Source: an uncultured Porphyromonadaceae bacterium
GTDB lineage: Bacteria > Bacteroidota > Bacteroidia > Bacteroidales > Muribaculaceae
DNA: 41,359 bases
Assembly: GCA_947176755.1 (NCBI GenBank)
Contig: CAMWRW010000011.1
Coordinates: forward strand, 1 to 41,359
Reading direction: 5' to 3'
Shown: piece by piece, positions 1-14,835 of the stretch
Layout of the letters: the number at the start of each line of letters is the position of its first letter
How positions within the stretch are numbered: the first letter of the stretch is position 1
Notes under the pieces: generated by a model
Seen by the model: the letters and a program-made list of their open reading frames with translations, nothing else
Databases searched by the model: none
Told to the model about the DNA's origin: nothing
Made by a program: the position numbers and the translations under genes

Positions 1-1056
1 GAAGGATTCAATAACTGGCTGCTCGGCATCGGCACTCCCGAATGGCTGACAGTCCTTATTGAATGTGTGCTCATCGGTGTGGCAATTCTTCTTGTTTATA
101 CCGTGCTCGCACTTTTCTATATCTTGTATGAACGTAAGCTCTGCGCCTGGTTCCAGTGTCGACTTGGCCCGATGCGAGTCGGTAAATGGGGTATTCTCCA
201 GGTGTTCGCCGATATGTTCAAGATCCTGGTCAAGGAGCTAATTTCCCTGAAAGGCACCGACCGTTTTCTCTTCCAACTCGCTCCTTACCTCGTGATTGCT
301 TCTTCTGTCACGATGCTGGCTTGTCTCCCTTGGGGCAACGGATTGCAGATTATAAACTGGAACATCGGTATCTTCTTCATACTTGCGGTTTCATCCGTCG
401 GAGTACTCGGTATCTTGCTTGCCGGTTGGGCTTCGAATAACAAGTACACCCTTATCGGCGCGATGCGAAGCGGTGCGCAGATGGTCAGCTACGAGATTTC
501 TCTCGGTCTTGCAATTATCACTATCTGTGTGCTTGCCGGCACGATGGATGTAAGCCAACTTGTATGGGAACAGGAATCCGGATGGTTCCTTTTCAAAGGG
601 CATATCCCGGCGCTTATCGCCTTTGTTATCTATCTTATCGCCGCAACGGCGGAAACAAACCGTGGCCCATTCGACCTTCCCGAGGCTGAACACGAGCTTA
701 CAGCCGGTTACCACACTGAATACTCCGGTATTCATTTCGGATTCTTCTATCTTGCTGAGTACCTCAACCTTTTTATCGTCTCCGGCATCGCTTCCTTGAT
801 GTTCCTCGGAGGTTGGATGCCTCTTCACGTGGCTGGTTGGGATGGCTTCAATATGGTGATGAACTGGATTCCCTCTCCCGTATGGTTCCTCCTCAAAGCC
901 TTCTTTATCTCGTTCGTGATCATTTGGTTCAAATGGACGTTCCCTCGTGTTCGTATCGACCAGATGCTCGCATTCGAATGGAAATATCTTATGCCCTTCT
1001 CGCTCGCTAACCTCATTCTGATGGCGGTTTGCGTGGCGCTCGGTTGGCATTTCTGA
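1..1056 (+). CDS. nuoH: NADH-quinone oxidoreductase subunit H, 5'-truncated by the window
   Basis: Membrane subunit of respiratory complex I that lies at the junction with the peripheral arm and forms part of the quinone chamber. The frame is open from base 1, so the true start lies upstream; 351 residues are visible, and an internal GTG at 67 is not the start. Hallmarks are the conserved loop reading [11 protein letters not shown] followed by AGYHTEYSG, the ERK/LGP motifs near the visible N-terminus, and about eight hydrophobic segments. It ends at a TGA 45 bases before atpD on the same strand. This is odd, because nuoH is normally followed directly by nuoI, which here appears only at 8220. 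Family assignment is certain; the start is unknown. Confidence 0.97.
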
Positions 1057-1101
1057 TTCTCGAATTCTTTCTTCAGCTAACTATTAAATCTAATATAAGT
1101 T

Positions 1102-2604
1102 ATGAGCGAAATATTTGGAACGGTAACGCAGGTCATCGGCCCGGTGATCGACGTCTCGTTCGAAGGCGGCAAGGAGAATATTCCTCCCATCTACGCGGCC
1201 CTAAAGGTTGAACGCGACAACGGAGAGGAACTCATCCTCGAAGTCGAACAGCATATCGGTGAAGATATTGTCCGTTGTGTCGCCATGGAGAGCACCGACG
1301 GTGTGCGTCGTGGCGTGAAGGTCCGTAACCTCGGCCATCCCATTTCCGTTCCGACCGGTAACCAGGTAAAAGGTCGTCTGCTTAATGTAATTGGCGAGCC
1401 GATTGATATGCTCGGTGATCTCAATCGTGATAATCTCCGTTCGATTCATCAGCCGGCTCCTGCTTTTGATGACCTCGCAATCTCCCAGGAGATTCTTATC
1501 ACGGGTATCAAAGTCATCGACTTCCTCGAACCTTATTCAAAGGGTGGTAAGATCGGTCTCTTCGGTGGTGCCGGTGTAGGTAAGACTGTGCTTATCCAGG
1601 AGCTCATCAACAATATTGCCAAAGGTCATAACGGTTTCTCCGTGTTCACCGGTGTTGGTGAGCGCACGCGTGAGGGTAACGACCTTCTCCGTGAAATGAT
1701 TGAAAGTGGTGTGATCCGCTATGGTAAGGAATTCGAAGAGAGCATGGAAAAAGGGGAGTGGAACCTCAATCAGGTCGACCATAAGGCTCTTGCAGATTCT
1801 CAGGCCACCCTTGTTTTCGGTCAGATGAACGAACCTCCGGGCGCTCGTCTCCGTGTTGCTCTTTCCGGTCTGACCGTGGCCGAACAGTTCCGCGATAATG
1901 ATGGCGGTGGTAAGGAAATTCTTCTCTTTATCGACAACATCTTCCGATTCACTCAGGCCGGTTCTGAGGTGTCGGCACTTCTCGGACGTATGCCTTCGGC
2001 TGTAGGTTATCAGCCTACCCTTTCTTCCGAAATGGGTGCGCTTCAGGAACGTATCACTTCTACCAGACAAGGTTCTATCACGTCCGTACAGGCTATCTAT
2101 GTGCCCGCCGACGACTTGACTGACCCTGCTCCGGCAACTACGTTCTCCTTCCTTGACGCGACGACCGTGCTTAGCCGTAAGATCTCGGAGCTCGGTATCT
2201 ATCCTGCCGTTGACCCTCTGGATTCAACTTCTCGTATCCTCGACCCCAATATTGTGGGCGAAGAACACTATAACACGGCGCAGGCTGTTATCCAGCTTCT
2301 CCAGAAGTATACTGAATTGCAGGATATCATCGCCATTCTTGGTGTGGATGAGCTCAGCGATGAAGACAAGCAGGTTGTGGCTCGCGCTCGCCGCGCTCAG
2401 CGCTTCCTTTCCCAACCCTTCCATGTCGCAGAGCAGTTCACCGGTCTTCCCGGTGTGATGGTGCCTCTTGCAGAAACGATCCGAGGATTCAAGATGATTC
2501 TCAGCGGAGAACTCGACCATCTGCCCGAGCAGGCGTTCCTCAATGTCGGCACAATCGACGAGGCTATCGCTAAGGGTGAGAAAATGCTTAAGGACGTTAA
2601 ATGA
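1102..2604 (+). CDS. atpD: F1Fo ATP synthase subunit beta
   Basis: Catalytic beta subunit of F1 (500 residues), which binds and converts ADP and phosphate at the alpha/beta interfaces. Visible motifs are the P-loop GGAGVGKT at about residues 155-162, GERTREGND from about 186 with the catalytic glutamate E187, and the regulatory DELSDED loop in the C-terminal helical domain. A stretch around residues 210-230 is longer than in E. coli and looks like a Bacteroidota-type insertion. The gene begins only 45 bases after nuoH, with no promoter consensus in the gap, and is followed 15 bases later by atpC. It heads an atp block inserted in the nuo operon. The ATG is the only sensible start. Confidence 0.98.
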
Positions 2605-2619
2605 TAATCCCTTCGTGTC

Positions 2620-2856
2620 ATGACTCTGGAAATTATTTCTGCACATGAAGTGTCGTTCAGCGGAGAGGTCTCTTCCGTGACACTTCCCGGAAAATTGGGG
2701 CAGTTTACGGTCCTCAAAGACCATGCTCCGATTATTTCGGTGCTGGTGAAAGGAGAGGTCAAATACACGGATATGGATGGCACCCGTCATGAGGTTCCGG
2801 TCTCCGGCGGTCTGGCTGACGTCAACCACAATCGAATCTCCGTCTGCATCTACTGA
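2620..2856 (+). CDS. atpC: F1Fo ATP synthase subunit epsilon, short form without C-terminal domain
   Basis: Central-stalk epsilon subunit joining gamma to the c ring. At 78 residues it covers only the N-terminal beta-sandwich domain, with the typical ISAHEVSFSGEV opening and the PGKLGQFTVLKDHAP segment. The helical C-terminal domain that inhibits ATP hydrolysis in many bacteria (family length about 130-140) is missing. The stop codon is clean and the next gene starts 28 bases later, so the short form does not look like a frameshift; similar short forms are usual in Bacteroidota. It lies between atpD and atpB in the operon. Confidence 0.93.
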   Translation: MTLEIISAHEVSFSGEVSSVTLPGKLGQFTVLKDHAPIISVLVKGEVKYTDMDGTRHEVPVSGGLADVNHNRISVCIY

Positions 2857-13291: not shown

Positions 13292-13315
13292 TCTTAAAAC
13301 GGACAACTTAACAAA

Positions 13316-14770
13316 ATGGATTATTCACAATTTGGGGCAATGTTGCCCGAGCTGATAATTCTCGGCCTGTTCGTGATCGTGTTGTGTGCCGACGTCTTTA
13401 CGAAAGACGGCAGTGCGAAGCGTTTCCTTACTCCGATGACTACGGTGCTCTTCCTCCTCGCGACCGTGGCAATATGGCTTATCCCGAGTTCCGGCGAAGA
13501 AGTTTTCGGCGGAATGTATGTTGATTCTCAAGCCTGCAAAGCCATGAAGGCGATCCTCAATGTGGGCGCTTTCATCGTGCTCCTTCAAGCAGCCGAATGG
13601 GTCGAAAGCGACGACATGAAATTCCGCAGAGGTGAATTTTACGAACTTCTCCTCGCAACTCTCTTCGGAATGTATCTTATGATTTCTGCGCGTCATTTCC
13701 TCCTTTTTATCATCGGTCTGGAGTGTGCATCGCTTCCTCTCGCAGCAATGGTGGCTTTCAATAAGAAACACTATGAAAGTCATGAGGCGGCCATCAAATA
13801 TATTCTGACAGCCGTGTTCTCTTCGGCTATTCTTCTGATGGGTCTCTCTTTCGTGTATGCGTTTTCGGGCGGCTCGCTTTACTTCAACGACATTGCGGCC
13901 TCAATCGCAGGCACGGAAATCAACGGACTTCTCATCGCTGCCGTTGCCTTCGTTATTGCCGGTATCGGCTTCAAACTTTCTCTCGTTCCGTTCCATCTCT
14001 GGACGGCTGATGTCTATCAAGGAGCTCCCACGGCAATCACGGCTTATCTCTCGGTGATTTCAAAAGGTGCGGCTGCATTTGCATTCTTCGTTATCTTTGC
14101 CCAGGTCTTCGGCTCTCTTTACAGTGAAGTATGGGAATGGATGATGTATGCCGTAATCATAGCCACAATCACTGTCGGTAACCTCTTTGCGATGCGACAG
14201 AAGAACATGAAGCGCTTTATGGCCTTCAGTTCGGTATCCCAGGCCGGTTATATCATGCTCGGCGTTATGACCGAGCAAGCTCTTGGTCTCGGTTCGATGA
14301 TGTTCTACATCTTCGTTTACATCGTCAGCAATCTTGCAGCCTTCGCGGTGATTTCAAGCATTGAGAACAAAACCGGCAAAGTCAGCATGGACGATTACGA
14401 CGGTCTGCACAAGAGCAATCCGCGCTTGTCGTTTGTGATGACTCTCGCGATGTTCTCGCTCGCCGGAATTCCTCCCTTTGCAGGATTCTTCAGCAAGATT
14501 CTCATCTTCACATCTGTGACTGCATCCGACAGCATGGCTCTATACATGCTCGTGCTTGTGGCCTTGATCAACACTATCATTTCGCTCTATTACTATCTGC
14601 TTGTTGTCAAAGCAATCTGGATCAACCCGGGTGAGGCTAAAGTGGAGCGTTTTGAAAGTAATCGTTGTGACCGTGTGGCGCTTGTGCTCTGCACGCTTGG
14701 CATCGTATTCTTCGGACTCGTTCCTTACATCTACGAATACTGCCTTGATGCCGCTCGTTTGTTGAATTAA
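13316..14770 (+). CDS. nuoN: NADH-quinone oxidoreductase subunit N
   Basis: Third antiporter-like subunit of complex I (484 residues), next to NuoK in the membrane arm. Visible motifs are IGLECASLPLAAM with the TM5 glutamate, FKLSLVPFHLWTADVYQGAP, and the C-terminal AGIPPFAGFFSK. It is the last gene of the nuo-atp-nuo series; a strong intrinsic terminator begins 27 bases after its stop. Confidence 0.97.
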   Translation: MDYSQFGAMLPELIILGLFVIVLCADVFTKDGSAKRFLTPMTTVLFLLATVAIWLIPSSGEEVFGGMYVDSQACKAMKAILNVGAFIVLLQAAEWVESDDMKFRRGEFYELLLATLFGMYLMISARHFLLFIIGLECASLPLAAMVAFNKKHYESHEAAIKYILTAVFSSAILLMGLSFVYAFSGGSLYFNDIAASIAGTEINGLLIAAVAFVIAGIGFKLSLVPFHLWTADVYQGAPTAITAYLSVISKGAAAFAFFVIFAQVFGSLYSEVWEWMMYAVIIATITVGNLFAMRQKNMKRFMAFSSVSQAGYIMLGVMTEQALGLGSMMFYIFVYIVSNLAAFAVISSIENKTGKVSMDDYDGLHKSNPRLSFVMTLAMFSLAGIPPFAGFFSKILIFTSVTASDSMALYMLVLVALINTIISLYYYLLVVKAIWINPGEAKVERFESNRCDRVALVLCTLGIVFFGLVPYIYEYCLDAARLLN

Positions 14771-14796
14771 TATCTCAACATACTATACTATCCTTT

Positions 14797-14835
14797 TCGG
14801 GAGGATGCCATCAGGCGTCCTCCCGATTTCTCTTG
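14797..14835 (+). terminator. Rho-independent terminator of the nuo-atp operon
   Basis: Arms TCGGGAGGA (14797-14805) and TCCTCCCGA (14818-14826) pair perfectly, with further GCC/GGC pairing inside the loop, followed by the T-rich TTTCTCTTG. It is the first clear terminator in the preceding 14.7 kb. Confidence 0.85.

Follow-up and report, generated by a model that had tools for sequence, protein, structure and literature searches.

An ATP synthase operon nested between nuoH and nuoI in a clade of Bacteroidales

The window analyzed here, a stretch of 41,359 nucleotides from an uncultured Porphyromonadaceae bacterium assigned to the Muribaculaceae (contig CAMWRW010000011.1), carries a complete F-type ATP synthase operon, atpDCBEFHAG, between nuoH and nuoI of a complex I (nuo) operon, 15 genes in all and every one on the + strand. 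The same nesting was found in genomes from seven families of Bacteroidales that form one clade, in which the atp operon has probably lost its promoter and is transcribed with the 11-subunit complex I as one unit of ~17 kb. The parts belong to ordinary, known families, while their nesting is a new form of operon fusion, of which no description was found in the open-access literature, the extent of the search. Operon fusions, or superoperons, join two known operons on one strand under one set of outer signals, a likeness that holds here; the difference from operon fusion in general is that a whole operon is nested inside another, bringing together a gradient maker and its consumer.

Gene layout of the window

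The original prediction had an eight-gene atp set separated from nuoH by 45 bases and from nuoI by 38, and both the set and the gap lengths proved exact. Genes were named by the best NCBIfam match of each, and 12 of the 15 pass at least one curated cut-off; NuoI, NuoJ, and AtpC score under the curated NCBIfam cut-offs. Features of the block are as follows.

1–1056, + strand: nuoH, 5′ end cut by the contig start (NF004741 above cut-off)
1057–1101, + strand: nuoH-atpD junction, 45 bases, without a −7 box or terminator
1102–2604, + strand: atpD, F1 beta (TIGR01039, 772 bits, cut-off 463)
2620–2856, + strand: atpC, epsilon, 78 amino acids (TIGR01216, 62.1 bits, just under the cut-off of 67.25; PF02823 above cut-off)
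2885–4237, + strand: atpB, Fo a subunit (TIGR01131 above cut-off)
4281–4538, + strand: atpE, c subunit (TIGR01260 above cut-off; aligned with 1yce)
4625–5119, + strand: atpF, b subunit (NCBIfam TIGR01144 above cut-off)
5126–5671, + strand: atpH, delta (NF009964 above cut-off)
5673–7259, + strand: atpA, F1 alpha (TIGR00962 above cut-off)
7291–8181, + strand: atpG, gamma (TIGR01146 above cut-off)
8182–8219, + strand: atpG-nuoI junction, 38 bases, without a −7 box or terminator
8220–8879, + strand: nuoI, 4Fe-4S domains (best matches NF004537 and TIGR01971, under cut-off)
8913–9440, + strand: nuoJ (best match NF005167, under cut-off)
9446–9757, + strand: nuoK (NF004320 above cut-off)
9761–11746, + strand: nuoL (NF005141 above cut-off)
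11777–13291, + strand: nuoM (TIGR01972 above cut-off)
13316–14770, + strand: nuoN (TIGR01770 above cut-off)
14797–14826, + strand: intrinsic terminator, 13-pair stem, 4-base loop, T-rich tail (best terminator-like site in 900–15000)

The window begins at base 1 of contig C11, inside nuoH, in a source genome drafted in 97 contigs. Contig C94 of the same genome carries nuoA, nuoB, nuoCD, and the start of nuoH, and its final 55 bases are the first 55 of the window; the head of the operon was thus inferred from this overlap and not read on one contig here. The nuoA gene was identified by size and position only, a test that was not passed in 3 of 22 loci of the first carrier set and 1 of 8 of the second. 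A single nuoH-type protein and a single AtpD above cut-off were found in the genome, so the cluster in the window appears to be the sole source of both complexes. On the 3′ side of nuoN, positions 14884–17665 of the window encode a B3/4-domain protein, an unassigned 149-amino-acid protein, and a family 57 glycosyl hydrolase (− strand).

Distribution and origin of the nesting

Scanning named genomes with NuoI turned up 350 confirmed relatives; the best 80 were retained for analysis and represent at most 79 assemblies, as L092 and L094 belong to the same one. The record titles are Muribaculaceae (30), Porphyromonadaceae (23), Bacteroidales (12), and Bacteroides sp. (11), with Muribaculum, Amulumruptor, Prevotella, and bacterium once each. 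The gene atpG is followed by nuoI in 79 of these 80 loci, the exception (L037) beginning at nuoI at a contig end; atpD follows nuoH in 68, whereas in the remaining 12 a contig end falls before nuoH is reached, and nuoCD through nuoN lie on one locus in 65. The shared assembly, JAAVDU, contains two different nuoI loci and probably represents mixed strains. A sample of the GTDB family comprised 99 genomes, 98 of them with nuoH, and loci were read from the 30 best NuoH matches and from 20 more picked mainly among the weakest; nuoH was followed by atpD in all 50, and a single-contig family genome (L355) shows the order from nuoB to nuoN. An artefact of binning or assembly might be suspected, given a 97-contig draft and a window whose first base is a contig end within nuoH, yet both junctions are internal to the window, they recur in independent assemblies, and the arrangement is present in an isolate-titled record (L111) as well as in the single-contig genome, making this explanation extremely improbable. 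Misassembly, the concern raised with the original prediction, was ruled out by the 79 of 80 named loci, the 50 of 50 family genomes, and L355.

The search for the adjacency across Bacteroidales and its mapping on trees, which had been proposed with the prediction, recovered carriers in seven families that form one clade. The order sample held 119 genomes, of which 72 had a PF00146 match (some of them hydrogenase-type relatives) and 67 of these had an AtpD above cut-off; adjacency, read by eye from tables in this sample and in the phylum sample, was found between nuoH and atpD in eight genomes from seven families, the window's own included. The full gene order was confirmed in the DNA of the seven adjacent genomes other than the window's, and in the six other families the insertion is carried by single genomes. 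The nuo loci fetched from the order were those of the 55 strongest NuoH matches, minus G079:C783 and plus one weaker match; apart from the carriers and one unreadable locus (L134), nuoH stands directly before nuoI in all 46 readable loci, from 38 genomes. Among the matches listed for the phylum sample, the window's genome alone showed the adjacency, out of 123 genomes placed of 131 with a NuoH match. The expectation that the two operons are usually separate was thus borne out by the 46 other loci of the order and by the phylum matches listed. The G-numbered genomes overlap with the set of named loci, and the two counts are therefore not to be added.

Other arrangements were seen along the way. 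The phylum sample contains genomes in which nuoH and atpD lie ~7–15 kb apart on opposite strands, converging and un-nested (G164, G176, G180, G196, G207, G215, G219, G269, G277, G282, and G285), and five Bacteroidales genomes (G053, G071, G080, G111, and G130) have a nuoH-type protein and no F-type AtpD above cut-off in the order-sample search.

Within carriers, the nuoH-atpD junction measures 24–137 bases (median 54, n = 76) and the atpG-nuoI junction −1 to 268 bases (median 44, n = 87). Near nuoN, the window's first two downstream genes recur in none of 54 loci and its third in 9; because the gene 3′ of nuoN differs between genomes, the block has been preserved while its neighborhood turns over.

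The carriers form one clade in a tree of rpoB from 70 genomes (7 carrier rows, G107 having no rpoB match; Shimodaira–Hasegawa-like approximate likelihood ratio test, SH-aLRT, 99), in a tree of 23 ribosomal-operon proteins from 20 genomes (8 carrier rows; 100/100), in the AtpD tree (12 carrier rows; 98/91), and in that of the concatenated Nuo proteins (12 carrier rows; SH-aLRT 100). Since the rpoB and ribosomal-protein trees make the carriers one clade, one insertion suffices. Close relatives without the insertion (G042, G125, G123, and G032) have a contiguous atpDCBEFHAG at another site, which indicates that a ready-made atp operon moved in; the free-standing operon of G042 is directly followed on its 3′ side by a strong hairpin with a T run, and several more distant genomes have atpD-atpC alone.

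The AtpD tree groups the carriers with G123 at 100/100, a grouping that the ribosomal proteins reject (approximately unbiased test, p-AU 1.6e-130), while AtpD itself rejects the rpoB-based carrier clade without G123 (p-AU 0.00017). This conflict of the G123 atp placement with the ribosomal proteins and rpoB suggests that atp was transferred horizontally. That the carrier clade itself captured a foreign atp operon is disfavored, as AtpD keeps the carriers with most of their ribosomal-tree neighbors: they lie inside a larger group (95/98) with G042, G046, G110, G122, and G125, and without G026. Because the carriers keep this company, the simpler reading of the trees is that the atp operon of G123 would have come from a stem relative of the carriers. 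In the Nuo tree, G123 and G032 adjoin the carriers, and G107 is the first branch among carriers in both the AtpD and Nuo trees. Contig 8 of G123 (L122) bears the free-standing atp operon and, ~23 kb away on the opposite strand, the nuo operon.

Promoter and terminator signals

Promoters were sought in the 300 bases 5′ of a gene, either as a −7 box of the Bacteroidetes type (TAnnTTTG) or in the full form TTTG-N17–23-TAnnTTTG, and the terminator counts expected by chance came from shuffles made as first-order resamplings. The carriers display the sequence features of a single operon (one strand, short gaps, a promoter box at the head, and a terminator at the end), with L034, L119, and G107 as exceptions, and the predicted single transcript is well supported by these sequence signals. 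In the first carrier set, a −7 box precedes nuoA in 17 of 19 carriers, mostly ~79 bases ahead, and the full form in 12 of 19; 15 of these 19 nuoA regions are from the window's genus. All 15 carriers of that genus have the box, as do 20 of 23 when all carriers are counted once, those lacking it being G107, G081, and G126. Genomes without the insertion have it before nuoA in 7 of 14.

The junctions, in contrast with the head, are nearly bare. Neither gap of the window holds a TAnnTTTG box, as the original prediction had stated; over all loci, the box occurs in 1 of 76 nuoH-atpD junctions and 1 of 87 atpG-nuoI junctions, with the full form in none of either. A search for the full form on the + strand in the 300 bases 5′ of each of 16 internal genes found none. 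Of 37 insertion-free genomes or loci, 25 have the −7 box before atpD, usually 30–50 bases ahead, versus 3 of 78 carriers, from which it seems that the atp operon lost its own promoter after the move. An excess of −7 boxes before nuoH (27 of 75) was set aside as spurious, because the nuoH query lacked the first codons and the box falls in the start of the coding sequence. Terminators follow the same pattern. The single terminator predicted after nuoN was recovered as the best terminator-like site at 900–15000 of the window, and 34 of 71 loci have a strong terminator no more than 150 bases beyond nuoN, versus 0.6 expected. Terminator-like sites number 0 of 76 in the nuoH-atpD junction (0.47 expected) and 3 of 87 in the atpG-nuoI junction (0.86 expected).

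Several observations weigh against a single transcriptional unit. Outside the window's genus, the nuoA −7 box is present in only five of eight carriers (G048, G044, G088, G051, and G362) and the full form in only two (G044 and G051). The full form is in any case a poor detector, found in 1 of 37 regions before a free-standing atpD, where a promoter must exist. Of 87 loci, 18 have a lone −7 box in the 300 bases leading up to nuoI, compared with 4 on the opposite strand, and 37 of 71 loci have no strong terminator after nuoN. Individual carriers also depart from the pattern: in L034 a strong terminator-like hairpin with 13 pairs and a T run splits the unit between atpG and nuoI, L119 has a weaker hairpin at the same place, and G107 lacks the −7 box at nuoA but has one 51 bases ahead of atpD. 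In G107, the atp mRNA may still start at atpD, which would make this genome a possible intermediate.

These observations could also be accommodated by operons that are nested and separately transcribed, with non-consensus internal promoters for atp and for nuoI–N and a partial stop after atpG, giving three mRNAs of unequal strength. The hairpins of L034 and L119, the atpD box of G107, and the lone −7 boxes that lie inside atpG in some loci would fit such a scheme, as would stoichiometry, since ATP synthase is often required in more copies than complex I. The scarcity of signals at the junctions themselves (no terminator-like site and one −7 box at 76 nuoH-atpD junctions, three sites and one box at 87 atpG-nuoI junctions) argues the other way, and we consider separate transcription unlikely.

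Transcription as one unit, the reading we prefer, implies the following course. In the stem of the clade, the atp operon would have come to lie between nuoH and nuoI of the nuo operon and would then have lost its own promoter box and terminator, leaving transcription to run from the promoter before nuoA to the terminator after nuoN over ~17 kb. The pump and the consumer of its gradient would be made together, with the supply of ATP synthase depending on the nuo promoter. We infer from the layout that the protein amounts of complex I and ATP synthase are coupled, and the making and spending of the ion gradient would probably be switched on together.

The two complexes and the meaning of their linkage

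The window and contig C94 together provide nuoA, B, C/D, and H–N, an 11-subunit set (NuoABCDHIJKLMN). A PF01512 search of the genome (99.93% complete) for NuoF had no match, NuoE and NuoG not being searched for, and the same search matched in 9 of 14 control genomes. Judged by its subunit set, this is a complex I without the module for reduced nicotinamide adenine dinucleotide (NADH), of the NUO/Fpo-like kind, and it would pump protons while reducing menaquinone with electrons from a donor other than NADH. One NqrB/RnfD-type protein and no NuoF/RnfC-type protein were found in the source genome; NqrB is the likelier identity because PF01512 had no match. The nuo operon of Bacteroides fragilis has the same subunit set without nuoE, nuoF, and nuoG, in ten consecutive genes with nuoC and nuoD fused (PMC7002350). 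It differs in that its consecutive tags, BF638R_0850-0841, leave no atp genes between nuoH and nuoI (PMC7002350). The B. fragilis NUO showed no NADH activity, and the donor of its electrons is unknown; mouse colonization did not require nuo, whose expression in rich medium was poor (PMC7002350).

All eight F-type ATP synthase subunit genes are present in the window, and the enzyme is predicted to use protons. In the alignment of the c subunit with the sodium ring 1yce, Ile replaces Gln and Gly-Val replaces the Ser-Thr after Glu, the replaced residues being those we take to bind sodium; their absence speaks for protons, which NUO is likewise expected to pump. A sodium-driven ATP synthase is thus unsupported, the c subunit lacking the sodium-site residues, and so is an N-ATPase (alternate F1F0), the scores being under the cut-offs (TIGR03305, 545.5 versus 752; TIGR03324, 576.8 versus 750.5). 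AtpC, at 78 amino acids, consists of the beta-sandwich domain only; the C-terminal helices, which in other bacteria inhibit hydrolysis of ATP, are absent. The ATP synthase unit described for Bacteroides and Prevotella, beta-epsilon-a-c-b-delta-alpha-gamma, has the same atp order as that found here (PMC5709465). There it is free-standing, and nuo is never mentioned in the main text of the paper (PMC5709465).

Why the nesting has been kept is a separate question from how it is transcribed. It may be a self-contained chemiosmotic module, assembled once in the stem of the Bacteroidales clade, driven by one promoter as one transcript, and kept since joint expression is advantageous in the anaerobic gut, an account that we regard as rather doubtful. 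The arrangement could instead be an entrenched accident, in which the atp operon landed downstream of an active promoter, the promoter it brought along degenerated, and purifying selection now does no more than prevent breakage, joint control bringing no benefit, an account to which we give somewhat less than an even chance. A single origin explains the distribution under entrenchment, and loss of the atpD box would lock the arrangement in. In B. fragilis, whose ten-gene nuo operon is separate, nuo proved dispensable for colonizing mice and was poorly expressed in rich medium, so a tie of atp to nuo is not obviously useful (PMC7002350). Retention in seven families and in every examined genome of the carrier family speaks against mere accident, though entrenchment predicts that too.

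Control of ATP synthase is normally separate from that of complex I, and here a clade of common gut bacteria appears to tie them together. The tie would make ATP synthase depend on the promoter of a complex I with an unknown electron donor, one that B. fragilis does not need in mice (PMC7002350). If it is true, nuo must be well expressed in this clade, and the question of the donor would become more pressing. In that case, G107, with its atpD box, and the other carriers would also make a natural contrast for studying operon capture. The nuoH-atp-nuoI layout provides an easy genomic marker for the clade.

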